Shown here: one piece after another, positions 59,658 through 63,055 of the stretch
Numbering within the stretch: position 1 is the stretch's first letter
Layout: each line of letters begins with the position of its first letter
Assembly (NCBI GenBank): GCA_028871345.1
Contig: JAGWNK010000006.1
Coordinates: 1 to 64,000, forward strand
Source: Alphaproteobacteria bacterium
GTDB lineage: Bacteria > Pseudomonadota > Alphaproteobacteria > Micropepsales > Micropepsaceae
Direction of reading: 5' to 3'
Length of the DNA stretch: 64,000 nucleotides
Program-made: the position numbers and the translations under genes
Notes under the pieces: generated by a model
The model's input: the letters and a program-made list of their open reading frames with translations, nothing else
Told to the model about the DNA's origin: nothing
Databases searched by the model: none

Positions 59658-59732
59658 GGCAGCGTAGCTCAGCGGTAGAGCAGGGGAATCATAATCCCTT
59701 GGTCGGGGGTTCAAATCCCTCCGCTGCTACCA
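59658..59732 (+). tRNA. tRNA-Met (anticodon CAT, elongator type)
   Basis: A complete cloverleaf with encoded CCA: acceptor GGCAGCG with CGCTGCT (G1-U72 wobble), D stem GCTC/GAGC, anticodon stem GGGGA/TCCCT around loop ATCATAA (anticodon CAT), variable TGGTC and T-stem GGGGG/CCCTC around TTCAAAT. The GGAATCATAATCC-like arm is typical of alphaproteobacterial elongator tRNA-Met rather than lysidine tRNA-Ile2 or initiator tRNA. Confidence 0.95.
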
Positions 59733-60739
59733 TCTCCAGCCGGATTGCTCTTGGACAGCGCCGCACCTGCGTGCGGCCTGGCGAGGCATGCCTTTACCCA
59801 GCCGAAGCACGGGCAGCCGTGAAAGCGCTCGTAGAGGATCATGCAGGGGCAGTTGAAGGCGAGGCCGTAGAGGAACATGGCCAGGAGCAGGTACAGCAGA
59901 TCGTAGAGTGGCGCCCATGCCTGGGCGAGAGCCCAGACGACGACCGTCAGCCCCGCCTTCGATCGGTAGGAGAAGGCGACTTTCGCCGGGACGAGGCAGA
60001 AGCTGAGATAGAGATGCAGGCCGCCGATCAAGAGCAATCCCGACAGCGTCAGCCCGGCGACAATGAGATATCCGAACAGGACGACTGCTGCGATCCGCAC
60101 CGCCATGGCCGGCGTCGCGCCCAGCCGGGGCGTCAGCATGGGAACGTTGCGCTGATACAAAAGATAGTCCGGCGCGGCATTCGACAATTCGGTTTCTTCG
60201 TCCCGCGCCCGCTTGACCATCAAGGGCAGCAGGACGGCGGTGGTGATCAGCAGGGTTGCCCAGTTGAGCATCGCCAGGCTCGCACCCCAGCACCACAACA
60301 GGAGCGAGGCGTACATCGGGTGGCGCGCCAGCGCGTAGGGGCCGGTGGTCATCAAGGTGTGGCTGCGCTTGATCTCGATGCCGTCCGACCACATGCGGCG
60401 GATGGCGATCTTGGCCCACACGTGCCAGATGACGGCCGCCGTCATCAGCGCGATGCCGAGGGCGCTATAGAGATACTGCAGGATGCCGGCCGGCCGGAGC
60501 TGGGCGAGGCTGTTGAGCCAGAAGGGGAACAGCACCAGCACGCCGATCAGCATCTCGCGCGTCGAGAAGAAATGGGCGCGCCCCGTGGCGAGCGGCTCGG
60601 GATGGCGGGCGTGTTCGAGGAATTTGAGCCCCGCGGCGGCAAGCAGGAGGAGTCCGCTCGCGTAAATCCAGGCCATCCCGGCCAGGAACAGTGCGGGATT
60701 GATGGATTGCGCCGCCACTTGCCGGATCAGGTCTGCCAT
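59711..60739 (-). CDS. ICMT/PEMT-like membrane methyltransferase with Cys-rich C-terminal domain
   Basis: 342 aa with about nine membrane helices. The SAM-binding region of the isoprenylcysteine methyltransferase group is present: TGPYALARHPMYASLLLWCW (about 130-149), then RDEETELSNAAPDYLLYQRN with VPMLTPR. A C-terminal extension has cysteines in AFNCPCMILYERFHGCPCFG. The stop codon is the complement of the tRNA-Met T-loop: the last 22 bases are antisense to the tRNA. Last gene of the radical SAM cluster; overlaps the Lgt-like gene by 13 bases. Target lipid or protein unknown. Confidence 0.75.
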   Translation of the reverse strand: MADLIRQVAAQSINPALFLAGMAWIYASGLLLLAAAGLKFLEHARHPEPLATGRAHFFSTREMLIGVLVLFPFWLNSLAQLRPAGILQYLYSALGIALMTAAVIWHVWAKIAIRRMWSDGIEIKRSHTLMTTGPYALARHPMYASLLLWCWGASLAMLNWATLLITTAVLLPLMVKRARDEETELSNAAPDYLLYQRNVPMLTPRLGATPAMAVRIAAVVLFGYLIVAGLTLSGLLLIGGLHLYLSFCLVPAKVAFSYRSKAGLTVVVWALAQAWAPLYDLLYLLLAMFLYGLAFNCPCMILYERFHGCPCFGWVKACLARPHAGAALSKSNPAGDGSSGGI

Positions 60740-61359
60740 CTGGGCGCCCTCCGCTGCTGCACCACCGACAGCACGATGGGCAGGAACAGCAGCGACAGGT
60801 ACTGATAGATCGTGAGATCGAACAGCACGCGCGGCTCGGTGCGCACGAATTCGATGAAGAAGCGCATCACCATGTAGGCGATGAGGTAGAGCGGGAACAG
60901 CAGGTCGACCCGTCCGGTGCGGCGATAGAAGAGATAGAGCGCCCCGGCCATGGTGAACTGGAAGGCGCTCTCCACCAGCTGCACGGGCACGAAGAAATGC
61001 CCGCCGCAGCAGCCGTAGAGGTAGCAGCCGATCTTGCCGAAGCCCACCGCCACCGCCAGCGGGATGGCGAAACGGCCGCCGAAAGCCTCGTCACGCTGGC
61101 CCGAGTGCCGCTTGTAGAGGTTGAGCGCAACGAAGGCCCCCAGCATCGCTCCCATGATGCTCTTTCCGGACAGGATGAGGTCGGGCCGCAGGCCGTAGGA
61201 CAGCCACACCGGCAGCTTGGCGCCGATGATGAAGCCGGCCACCGCCACGATGTAGATGTCGAAGCGTTTGCGCCGGTCGGGCTTGGGCATGTCGAGGGCC
61301 TTTGCCGTCAGGAAGGCGGCAATGGCCCCGATGACCGACATGGTGTCGTACCAGAACAT
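60727..61359 (-). CDS. Lgt-like prolipoprotein diacylglyceryl transferase homologue
   Basis: 210 aa, about seven helices. The fold resembles Lgt: SGKSIMGAMLGAFVALNLY corresponds to the HGG loop, but the catalytic-region His is missing; VGFGKIGCYLYGCCGGHFF is the Lgt arginine motif (GRIGNFINGE) with Cys replacing residues; MRFFIEFVRTEPRVLF keeps the RFxxExxR motif. So it is a divergent paralogue that probably transfers or modifies a lipid group rather than the housekeeping Lgt. 3 bases after the small membrane gene. Confidence 0.75.
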   Translation of the reverse strand: MFWYDTMSVIGAIAAFLTAKALDMPKPDRRKRFDIYIVAVAGFIIGAKLPVWLSYGLRPDLILSGKSIMGAMLGAFVALNLYKRHSGQRDEAFGGRFAIPLAVAVGFGKIGCYLYGCCGGHFFVPVQLVESAFQFTMAGALYLFYRRTGRVDLLFPLYLIAYMVMRFFIEFVRTEPRVLFDLTIYQYLSLLFLPIVLSVVQQRRAPRWQT

Positions 61360-61362
61360 CTC

Positions 61363-61656
61363 TCAGTGGCCGGGGACGTAGGTGATCGCCGCATAGACGG
61401 CGGCCACGGCCAGCGCCGCGATGATTCCCCAGCGGATGCCGGGGTTCGGCGTGCGGATCGCGATCCACAGGCCGACACCGACGAAGACCACGCCATAGAG
61501 GACGAAGATGATGGTCGTGACGTTGGGGATCTGCGCTCCTGCCAACGACACGAGGCCGACGGGCACGCAGGTGAAGACGAACAAGAGGGGTATGGCGATC
61601 AGCGTCAGGATGAAGGCGATGATCTTGTGCGATGTCGGGATGTCGGAGTCTGCCAT
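61363..61656 (-). CDS. Small membrane protein of the radical SAM cluster
   Basis: 97 aa with three hydrophobic helices (FILTLIAIPLLFVFTCVPVG, TTIIFVLYGVVFVGVGLWIA, GIIAALAVAAVYAAITYVPG). No family recognised. It lies 82 bases after the radical SAM gene and 3 before the Lgt-like gene, so it is part of the same transcript. Confidence 0.7.
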   Translation of the reverse strand: MADSDIPTSHKIIAFILTLIAIPLLFVFTCVPVGLVSLAGAQIPNVTTIIFVLYGVVFVGVGLWIAIRTPNPGIRWGIIAALAVAAVYAAITYVPGH

Positions 61657-61738
61657 GGCTTGTCTCCTTCGGTGGAACAGCAGACGGAACAGCGCGCGGA
61701 ACGCGAGAAAGCGGGGAACGCCGCCGGGCAGAACGTGG

Positions 61739-63055
61739 TCATGGCGGCCTGCCCTTCAGCGCATTGTGGATGCAGAACGGCACGATCTTGCCGTCGCCCG
61801 CCGACACCCCGGTGCAGCATTTCCTGACGCGCTCGAAATCGAAGGTGCCGGCATCCATGAAATTCTTCACCACGAGGCGCACGATCTTCATGTCCTCGTG
61901 ACAGGAGCCGCCGCCTTCGGCGAAGGCTTGCAGCTTCTCGAGCATGAATGAGCCGCCGAGCAGGCGGCCGATGAAGCAGTCGCAGGCGTCCTTGCGCAGG
62001 TAGTCGAGGATGGACTTGTCGAAGGCGATGCGGTTGGCGATCTTGTCCTTGCACTGGGCGAGATCGACATGCGCCCCCAGCGAGTAGACCTTGTCGCCCT
62101 GGCAGAACAGGAAGCCCAGCGAGGTGCAGTTTTCGTGCGAACAGGGCAGCGGAACGATGTCTTCGTAGGCAGCCATCCCGCTCGAGGCGATCGCCAGCAG
62201 GATGTCTTCCTGCAGCACCGTGGCAATGTCGCAGCCGGCGGCACTGCCCACCTTCGTCAGCCGCTGGAAGGTGATGCCCGAGATGTGGCGCGTCTTGACT
62301 GCCAGCGCCAGGATGGCGGGGATCTGGGCGAGATTGCCCTCATAGACCGTGACGGCGAGGCAGATTTTGATCTCCGCCGCGTTCAGCTTCTCGATGATCT
62401 CGCGCTTTGCCGCCACCAGGCGTCGCCCTCGCAACCTCTCGCTGACGTCATCGTCGAAACCGTCGAACTGCAGGTAGATTTCGATGCGGTCCCGGTGGGC
62501 GCGGATCTTCTCGAACACCGCATCGTCGCGCAGCAGCGCCAGGCCGTTGGTATTGACGAGGATGCGCCCGATGTCGTGCTTGAGCGCCTCGTCGACGAGA
62601 TCGCAGAATGCAGGATGCAGCAGGCATTCGCCGCCCGAGATCTGCAGAACTTCGAGCTTGCCGCCTTCCACCTTGAGCAGTGCCGCCAGCCGCGCCCGGA
62701 ATTCGTCGAGGGAGATATGGTTCTTGCCCTTGTCGCCGAAATAGCAGATCGGGCAGGCGAGGTCGCAACAATCCGTCACCTCGATCAGTCCCGTGCAGAC
62801 GTGCTGAGTGTGGGCGTCGCACCAGCCGCAATCTTCGCCGCAGCGGCCGTGGTAGGTCGTGATCGGCACGAAGGCCTTGCCGGGCAGGTCGAAGGTCTTG
62901 TCGAAGAAGCGCTTCGCGTCCTTGGCGACCTGCACCGTCGAGCGGCCATGTGCGGCGCAGGTCTTCTCCAGAAAGACGTCCTTGCCTTTGATGATCTTGC
63001 GGGCCGGAACCGCCTCCAGGCAGACGGGACAGAGGGACTCGGTTTCCGGCTTCAT
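61739..63055 (-). CDS. Radical SAM protein of the COG1964 (Tes/MJ0619-like) group
   Basis: 438 aa. An N-terminal CPVC (9-12) with CAAHGR (33-38) suggests a zinc-ribbon-like site; CGEDCGWCDAHTQHVC (72-87) is the auxiliary cluster region; the SAM-cleaving Cys triad is Cys97, Cys101, Cys104 in DCCDLACPICYF; more cysteines follow, ending KCCTGVSAGDGKIVPFCIHN. This layout is that of COG1964 proteins, whose archaeal member MJ0619 (Tes) joins lipid tails. In bacteria the chemistry is mostly unknown. First gene of the four-gene cluster. Confidence 0.8.
   Translation of the reverse strand: MKPETESLCPVCLEAVPARKIIKGKDVFLEKTCAAHGRSTVQVAKDAKRFFDKTFDLPGKAFVPITTYHGRCGEDCGWCDAHTQHVCTGLIEVTDCCDLACPICYFGDKGKNHISLDEFRARLAALLKVEGGKLEVLQISGGECLLHPAFCDLVDEALKHDIGRILVNTNGLALLRDDAVFEKIRAHRDRIEIYLQFDGFDDDVSERLRGRRLVAAKREIIEKLNAAEIKICLAVTVYEGNLAQIPAILALAVKTRHISGITFQRLTKVGSAAGCDIATVLQEDILLAIASSGMAAYEDIVPLPCSHENCTSLGFLFCQGDKVYSLGAHVDLAQCKDKIANRIAFDKSILDYLRKDACDCFIGRLLGGSFMLEKLQAFAEGGGSCHEDMKIVRLVVKNFMDAGTFDFERVRKCCTGVSAGDGKIVPFCIHNALKGRPP

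Follow-up and report, generated by a model that had tools for sequence, protein, structure and literature searches.

The window, a stretch of 64,000 nucleotides of alphaproteobacterial DNA, carries on its minus strand a four-gene cluster that is a conserved unit and apparently one that has so far not been described. The reading that we prefer, tentatively and at somewhat less than an even chance, is that the cluster would act as a lipid-loading module, linking a Cys of its own small membrane protein to an altered membrane lipid. The reading draws on the gene set, a conserved Cys in the small protein, kept ligand positions in the radical SAM enzyme, the Lgt fold of a predicted model and a methyltransferase core. 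In order of transcription the genes are:

61739..63055, minus strand: Tes-like radical SAM enzyme (rSAM), 438 aa; PF04055 and PF23545
61363..61656, minus strand: small membrane protein of 97 aa, candidate lipid acceptor; no family
60727..61359, minus strand: Lgt-like membrane transferase, 210 aa; PF01790
59711..60739, minus strand: ICMT/PEMT-like membrane methyltransferase, 342 aa, with a Cys-rich C-terminal extension; PF04140 and PF04191

All four ORFs agree with the positions and the spacing (gaps of 82 and 3 bases, then an overlap of 13 bases) given in an earlier note on this DNA. Pfam places the rSAM in the radical SAM family PF04055 (1.9e-15) and finds the HMPTM/MJ0619 zinc ribbon PF23545 (1.6e-14); the Lgt-like protein belongs to PF01790 LGT (1.4e-21; 77.4 bits against a gathering score of 24.9) and the ICMT-like protein to PF04140 ICMT (6e-11; 43.1 bits against 24) and PF04191 PEMT (1.3e-09). 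A family search with the small membrane protein gave none above cut-off. At its 3' end the ICMT-like ORF shares 22 bases with a tRNA-Met gene on the opposite strand.

The order rSAM, Lgt-like gene, ICMT-like gene on one strand recurs in 26/26 evaluable loci, that is, those of the 31 loci found whose contig extends far enough, and is therefore not a matter of chance; the 31 loci come from Alphaproteobacteria, Elusimicrobiota and one Kiritimatiellae MAG. Comparison of neighbourhoods, one of two points on which the earlier note had let its idea stand or fall, thus finds the four-gene set conserved as a unit. Among 294 genomes from the phylum to which one Elusimicrobiaceae carrier belongs, 12 contain the rSAM (E up to 1e-100); the same 12 have the ICMT-like gene (E up to 1e-50), and all of them, with G654 in addition, have the Lgt-like gene (E up to 1e-39). 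The E-value limits behind this overlap were chosen after the hits were seen: looser limits give 15 genomes each for the rSAM (1e-30) and the ICMT-like gene (1e-15), whereas the Lgt-like profile matches 16 at 1e-15, one of which, G503, has an ordinary-looking Lgt. Of 385 genomes from the class, exactly 3 have the ICMT-like gene (E up to 1e-20), and these are the 3 with an rSAM of the window's type. In G654 the Lgt-like gene is preceded by an ORF of 231 aa that has a helix-end Cys, and profile searches of this one draft genome found neither rSAM nor ICMT-like gene; the absence of the rSAM may be a gap, since the contig begins just upstream. Profile searches of G764 gave two rSAM homologues and no Lgt-like or ICMT-like gene, and in M. 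vanbaalenii and Salinirubellus an rSAM is present without Lgt. An LplT-Aas-like protein is encoded near 7 of the 31 loci, in four of them 3-12 bases ahead of the rSAM, and PlsY near two; the Aas neighbours belong mostly to one lineage, and the window's own genus has none at any of its four loci.

The closest solved relative of the rSAM is the tetraether synthase MJ0619 (7tol), with an E-value of 1e-33 for the single sequence and 1.2e-43 for a profile, and the peptide maturase SkfB lies far behind (1.2e-09). A grouping with unrelated peptide-modifying enzymes, which would have spoken against the earlier note, was thus not what emerged. All 11 mapped positions of the rubredoxin-type, N-auxiliary and radical SAM ligands of MJ0619 are kept in 25/25 window-type rows, the N-cluster His being assigned by position, and so are the four C-terminal Cys/His ligand positions (25/25). 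The position of Met439 is Lys in all 25 rows and that of Tyr459 is Val or Ile; according to PMC9433317, both residues are fully conserved among archaeal Tes homologues and variants at both sites are still active. Against the NCBIfam model for Tes (NF045702) the protein scores 168 bits, below the cut-off of 450, and its best score, nearly full length, is to TrsS (NF045646; 237.4 bits, below the cut-off of 490). In the rSAM tree the long branches, MJ0619 among them, meet, and for this reason it was used for the window-type clade only. A search of viral contigs with six short patterns found no rSAM relative. Because the unit is conserved and its rSAM is nearest to MJ0619, the earlier view that the set makes an unusual membrane lipid or a modified lipoprotein is a fair inference, although two arguments attached to it, from a missing His and from prenyl-cysteine, are not supported.

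The earlier note gave no role to the small membrane protein, which we think is the key part of the cluster. Its Cys30 (codon 61567-61569) closes the hydrophobic stretch ...IPLLFVFTC, and a helix-end Cys after such a stretch (the tight motif) is present in 39/41 copies, compared with 1/23 of the small and 11/88 of all ORFs for membrane proteins at these loci; this motif was composed after the sequences had been seen, rows that are related do not count independently and the control ORFs were called mechanically. A loose motif of eight hydrophobic residues followed by Cys occurs in 38/41 copies against 10/23 small and 42/88 of all control ORFs, and is weak given the small controls. The Cys is missing from two of the 41 small ORFs, and in locus L047 no small membrane ORF was found. 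The residue preceding the Cys is Thr in 29/39 copies, Gly, Ala or Ser in 8 and Val or Ile in 2; in a lipobox it is usually Ala, Gly or Ser. Copies from Elusimicrobiota have 4-8 residues downstream of the Cys, L119 and L120 have 11-12, and the remaining untruncated copies have 53-69; because of these distances to the C-terminus a prenyl-cysteine (CaaX-like) substrate was not adopted as a main reading. The gene's place in the cluster also varies: it follows the ICMT-like gene in L119, and L052 and L126 have it as a fusion with the rSAM, an arrangement as compatible with a membrane anchor as with a substrate. The ORF changes fast, is often duplicated and adjoins the rSAM. Through its conserved Cys, which we propose as the lipid acceptor of the Lgt-like enzyme, the idea of a modified lipoprotein can be put to the test.

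More distant loci (B type) extend this pattern. Among the 15 examined, a set without the B-type G053 and G092, the Lgt-like gene is present in 15/15 and a helix-end Cys protein in 14/15; the Lgt-like residue counts for this type cover 14/15 rows, L028 having been dropped. B-type rSAMs are without three of the four C-terminal Cys (15/15), and the Lgt-like gene and small protein are retained. Such distant Lgt-like/rSAM pairs with small Cys proteins occur in Alphaproteobacteria, Bacteroidota and Actinomycetota, Persicobacter, M. avium, M. branderi and Nonomuraea being among those that have them. Six of ten plasmid-record matches (H1, H2, H3, H5, H6 and H9) were inspected.

A possible account, which we hold with somewhat less belief, is a pathway for a free membrane lipid: the Tes-like enzyme would join or modify phospholipid tails, giving a membrane-spanning or branched lipid, the Lgt-like enzyme would shift diacylglyceryl to an acceptor that is a lipid or a small molecule, the ICMT/PEMT-like enzyme would methylate the head group and the small protein would only anchor the rSAM. 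The MJ0619-like ligands of the window-type rows, including the four C-terminal Cys, agree with it, as do the rSAM-small protein fusions and the LplT-Aas-like and PlsY neighbours, and bacterial Tes homologues have been proposed for brGDGTs in PMC8941075. It leaves unexplained, however, why the Cys of the small protein is so constant, why G654 has an Lgt-like/Cys-protein pair without an rSAM, and why the B type, which lacks three of the four C-terminal Cys, still keeps both partners. It is unlikely that the cluster modifies a peptide in the manner of RiPP systems, with the small protein as the target of the rSAM and of lipidation and methylation by the two membrane enzymes; a small, fast-changing, often duplicated ORF beside an rSAM would suit this, but the rSAM is far nearer to a lipid enzyme than to peptide maturases, and the small proteins are mostly membrane helix and show no constant peptide segment besides the Cys motif.

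The Lgt-like gene is a second copy, in addition to an ordinary Lgt, in 16/17 carriers. At the positions of E. coli Lgt it has M69 for H103, K109 for R143, C112 for N146 and C117 for E151, and Y162, R166 and E170 retain Y235, R239 and E243, kept in 19/19 rows. Lys takes the R143 position in 19/19 rows and Ser, by eye, in the intermediate locus L119; R143 is essential in E. coli Lgt, and Arg143 and Arg239 are catalytically important. Compared with the ordinary Lgts counted, one loop segment is shorter by 16-34 residues. The earlier note had pointed to a missing catalytic His: Met does stand at H103 in 19/19 rows, but this alone means little as a mark of altered catalysis because 7/17 ordinary Lgts of the same genomes are also without the His, and it is ruled out as a special feature. 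The predicted model, a check that the note had proposed, has an Lgt fold, with 5azb as the top structure match (E 2.6e-04, TM 0.59 by query length). The score against TIGR00544 is 39.2 bits, under the cut-off of 118.9; on this score, and with some defining residues changed, a plain Lgt was set aside.

The second predicted model, that of the ICMT-like protein (pLDDT 74), has an ICMT core fold, with Ma-ICMT 4a2n as its first match (E 1.6e-03). The core carries the motifs RHPMYASLL and EExxL, and the protein scores 66 bits against NF040696, under the cut-off of 160. No Pfam family matches residues 200-342, which include a nearly invariant Cys-rich tail, NCPCM...CPCF, at about residues 296-312. 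Prenyl-cysteine methylation, which the earlier note implied, is unsupported, no evidence for such a substrate having been found. Together with C112, C117 and C118, invariant in 19/19 Lgt-like rows, and the Cys of the small protein, the near-invariant tail could suggest a membrane metal-binding or redox system, an improbable reading given that the GC..GCC motif is also found in 7/17 ordinary Lgts of the carrier genomes and that the Tes-like enzyme and methyltransferase core would be unaccounted for.

If a lipid is indeed loaded onto the small protein, the Lgt-like enzyme would move a glycerolipid moiety, which the analogy with Lgt suggests to be diacylglyceryl, onto a Cys that would sit at the outer end of the membrane helix. 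From the cytoplasmic side the Tes-like rSAM would generate a radical at a carbon of a lipid tail and, aided by its C-terminal Fe-S cluster, join or otherwise alter that tail, and the ICMT/PEMT-like enzyme would methylate the lipid or its head. We infer the Cys as acceptor and its outward orientation, as well as the lipid, the order of the steps and the group methylated. Several observations weigh against this scheme: the Thr before the Cys, the change of R143 to Lys, the shortened loop, the two ORFs without Cys and the locus without an ORF, and the rSAMs of G764, M. vanbaalenii and Salinirubellus that have no Lgt partner. A further point against it is that the active site of Lgt lies on the outer face of the membrane, whereas the rSAM would work from the cytoplasm. 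We speculate, as a long shot, that the product staples the two leaflets: a repurposed Lgt would lipidate the outer-face Cys and the cytoplasmic Tes-like enzyme would couple tails into a protein-linked, perhaps membrane-spanning, methylated lipid, with the Lgt-like/Cys protein/Tes-like core shared by Pseudomonadota, Elusimicrobiota, Bacteroidota and Actinomycetota.

What is new here is the helix-end Cys of the small protein and the occurrence of such proteins beside distant Lgt-like/rSAM pairs. Hundreds of bacterial Tes homologues have been reported, the activity of none being confirmed in the accessible parts of PMC8941075 and PMC11868695; one branch of them now gains a fixed partner set and a testable candidate acceptor Cys, and a named strain from a culture collection, Rhizomicrobium electricum DSM 21034, also carries the cluster. 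A literature search, with most subscription journals outside its coverage, found no paper linking Lgt, radical SAM and tetraether, and nothing related on COG1964; broadened to membrane-spanning lipids and radical SAM, it led to the papers cited here. The cluster points to lipid chemistry not previously known in these bacteria; should its product be a new lipid or lipid-protein link, this would matter both for the membrane chemistry of bacteria and where tetraether-like lipids serve as environmental markers.

Among known systems, the rSAM aligns nearly full length with Tes/GDGT-MAS (MJ0619, 7tol/7tom; PMC9433317, PMC8941075) and shares its rubredoxin-type, N-auxiliary, radical SAM and four C-terminal Cys sites. 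It differs in Met439 to Lys, Tyr459 to Val/Ile and a score under the NCBIfam cut-off, for which a plain Tes was set aside, and in its bacterial hosts and its Lgt-like, small-protein and ICMT-like partners. The TrsS radical SAM (seleno)protein family gives the rSAM its top NCBIfam score, yet one below cut-off. The bacterial membrane-spanning lipid synthase Mss with Ger (PMC13274423) couples lipid tails and has a reported Tes-like architecture; no Lgt-like partner is mentioned in the available parts of that source. The ICMT-like protein has the core fold and both motifs of the ICMT family (PF04140, 4a2n) and is set apart by its added C-terminal part with NCPCM..CPCF and its sub-cut-off score. 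Finally, the Lgt-like protein has in common with Lgt (PF01790, 5azb) the family, the predicted fold and Y235/R239/E243, and is distinguished by its second-copy status, R143K, H103M, a shorter loop and a low TIGR00544 score.

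The cluster near the end of the window comprises four genes on one strand, and their spacing, measured on the window sequence, is the same as that reported in the earlier note. The genome containing the window is 3.9 Mb. In order of transcription the features are:

61739-63055, minus strand: ORF of the Tes-like radical SAM protein (rSAM); Pfam radical SAM and MJ0619-type zinc ribbon
61363-61656, minus strand: ORF of the small membrane protein; no Pfam family above cut-off
60727-61359, minus strand: ORF of the Lgt-like protein; Pfam LGT
59711-60739, minus strand: ORF of the ICMT-like protein; Pfam ICMT/PEMT

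At its 3' end the ICMT-like gene shares 22 bases with a tRNA-Met gene that is read from the other strand (59658-59732), and the ICMT-like protein of the window is about 18 residues longer at its end than the homologue in locus L048.

An order-level search found rSAM in 18 of 96 genomes, as the window type (type A: the window and three others, 71-76% identity) or as a more distant type (type B: 14 genomes, 32-34% identity). Each of these type A (4) and type B (14) genomes gave one match (E up to 1e-20); 18 carriers among 96 are too few to show that the two types exclude each other within one genome. A scan of a one-genome-per-species collection returned 23 rSAM loci (57-76% identity), labelled Rhizomicrobium, Alphaproteobacteria, Elusimicrobiaceae or Elusimicrobia, Kiritimatiellae, or 'bacterium' (ruminant guts). 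Together with the window and seven loci from a sample of 294 genomes in the phylum to which the Elusimicrobiaceae MAG G477 belongs, these make 31 distinct loci; three of the seven (L117-L119) carry an intermediate rSAM. The contig ends before the Lgt-like gene in five (L055, L061, L065, L066, L069), and in all 26 remaining loci the rSAM, Lgt-like and ICMT-like genes follow in that order on the same strand. Within the phylum sample, rSAM hits with E up to 1e-100 and ICMT-like hits with E up to 1e-50 fall in the identical 12 of 294 genomes; hits of the Lgt-like gene with E up to 1e-39 cover these 12 and G654 as well. The hypergeometric chance of this overlap is 1e-21, a value uncorrected for kinship and obtained with E limits chosen after the hits were seen. 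At class level (385 genomes searched), the carriers of the ICMT-like gene are exactly the three genomes that have type A rSAM.

Exactly two LGT genes, one ordinary and one Lgt-like, are present in the window's genome and in 16 of 17 other carriers; G490 (1.1 Mb) has the Lgt-like copy alone, without an ordinary Lgt. The first match of the Lgt-like structure model (pLDDT 85) is the Lgt structure 5azb. In E. coli Lgt numbering, derived from alignment of the Lgt-like rows, R143 is replaced by Lys, N146 and E151 by Cys, and H103 by Met in 19 of 19 rows, the last confirming the absence of the usual His claimed previously; Y235, R239 and E243 are retained, and one loop falls 16-34 residues short of its length in the ordinary Lgts counted. 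Since the ordinary Lgts of carrier genomes share the loss of H103 (7 of 17) and the two Cys (present in 7), the distinguishing features are R143K and the short loop. By eye, R143 is Ser in the Lgt-like protein of the intermediate locus L119, which also retains more of the loop.

The small membrane protein occurs once or twice per locus, with untruncated copies of 68 to 162 aa. The comparison covered 41 separate copies or fused tails, drawn from L120 and from 29 of the 31 loci. In 39 of them a hydrophobic stretch is followed by a Cys (an automatic filter counted 38, missing L126 owing to an Arg); of these 39, 29 have Pro at position -7 and 29 have Thr at position -1. The Cys is absent from the first copy of L051 and from a questionable ORF of L068. 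Among membrane ORFs of the same loci taken as controls, a loose motif (eight hydrophobic residues, then Cys) occurs in 10 of the 23 small ones and in 42 of the full 88; a tighter motif, which was fitted on the small-protein rows themselves, occurs in 1 of 23 and 11 of 88. The small protein comes after the ICMT-like gene in L119 and is fused to rSAM in L052 and L126. The second small membrane protein of UBA3768 (L044 10798-11160) has a SHOCT-like start (3.9e-06, 26.9 bits against a Pfam cut-off of 27).

The established target of Lgt is a cysteine placed where a membrane helix ends on the outer side. In the loci studied, a relative of Lgt regularly occurs together with a small protein whose sole constant feature is a helix-end Cys. 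The simplest reading is that the Lgt-like enzyme would be a transferase and this Cys its acceptor. The Lgt-like enzyme would load the small protein at its Cys, and the rSAM would then act on the lipid, as would the ICMT-like methyltransferase in type A loci. The main rival is a free-lipid pathway, in which the small protein would serve as an anchor. Lipid genes lie near some of the loci: an LplT-Aas-like protein with MFS, PlsC-type acyltransferase and AMP-binding domains (Pfam on L050, L051 and L054), or a BLAST match to it, is near 7 of the 31 (L050, L052, L053 as a fragment, L054, L057 at 5 kb downstream, L123 and the alphaproteobacterial L051), four loci of this survey having less than 1 kb of upstream sequence. 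In L050, L052, L054 and L123 the gene ends 3-12 bases upstream of rSAM. PlsY is close to L053 and L118, and neither protein was found near the four loci of the window's genus. After the cluster in L053 (4511-5500), PlsY, a G3P acyltransferase, is fused to a FeeM-like N-acyl amino acid synthase domain. The ICMT-like protein has a conserved core that contains its methyltransferase motifs, and in the structure model of the protein (pLDDT 74) this core matches Ma-ICMT (4a2n); its C-terminal part (NCPCM..YEKYH.CPCF) matched no family in a Pfam search.

The pairing of rSAM with an Lgt-like gene extends to type B, where an Lgt-like gene (E up to 0.01) is present in 15 of 15 fetched loci and a Cys protein with a GLC or similar motif in 14. 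Six plasmid records were read, and both genes are present in those of Persicobacter, M. avium, M. branderi and Nonomuraea. The first three also encode small proteins bearing GxC near the C-terminus, and BLAST identified a homologue in Nonomuraea. In Mycolicibacterium vanbaalenii (L143 4001-6369) and the haloarchaeon Salinirubellus (L145 3893-6171) the gene after the plasmid rSAM has a methyltransferase domain and no Lgt lies close by; this is another two-gene unit of the Tes-like rSAM family. In G654 (L140 3-1706) a fragment of Aas stands with an Lgt-like gene and a 231-aa ORF in which a helix ends in ...FMGC; neither rSAM nor an ICMT-like gene was found in this genome, and the contig begins just upstream of the locus. 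G764 has two rSAM homologues, and the Lgt-like and ICMT-like profiles matched nothing in its genome. An intermediate arrangement is seen in G646 (L120 7246-11093): the rSAM is B-like, an Lgt-like gene is present, the ICMT-like protein is 215 aa long and lacks the Cys tail, and each of two small proteins carries the Cys in its last helix.

In the rSAM tree a single clade (100/96) holds all 25 type A rows, and the three intermediates stand beside it (all 28 together, 100/100). A Kiritimatiellae row groups with two alphaproteobacterial rows (88/84), which suggests transfer between phyla, to be read with caution since most rows are MAGs.

Bacterial Tes homologues without confirmed activity are already described in PMC8941075 and PMC11868695, and our literature search found nothing linking them with an Lgt-like gene. 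The nearest solved relative of rSAM is MJ0619, the archaeal tetraether lipid synthase, whose rubredoxin-type Cys3His, N-auxiliary Cys3His and radical SAM Cys3 are retained in all rows (25 type A, 3 intermediate, 15 type B). Four more C-terminal Cys (that of SHQHC, C455, C456 and C470) are kept in 28 of 28 type A and intermediate rows and would, from their position, bind the C-terminal cluster; three of the four are lost in 15 of 15 type B rows. Judged by eye, CC, PFC and a Lys in VKPFMD are likewise present in the rSAM proteins of M. avium and M. branderi. In the accessible part of PMC9433317, Met439 is the sole C-terminal-cluster ligand named. Unlike MJ0619, rSAM has Lys at this position in all 28 type A and intermediate rows, and Val or Ile at Tyr459. 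Its NCBIfam scores are far under the Tes and TrsS cut-offs; with the ligand positions of MJ0619 kept and these cut-offs missed, the protein has Tes-like equipment, yet by the family test it is not Tes.
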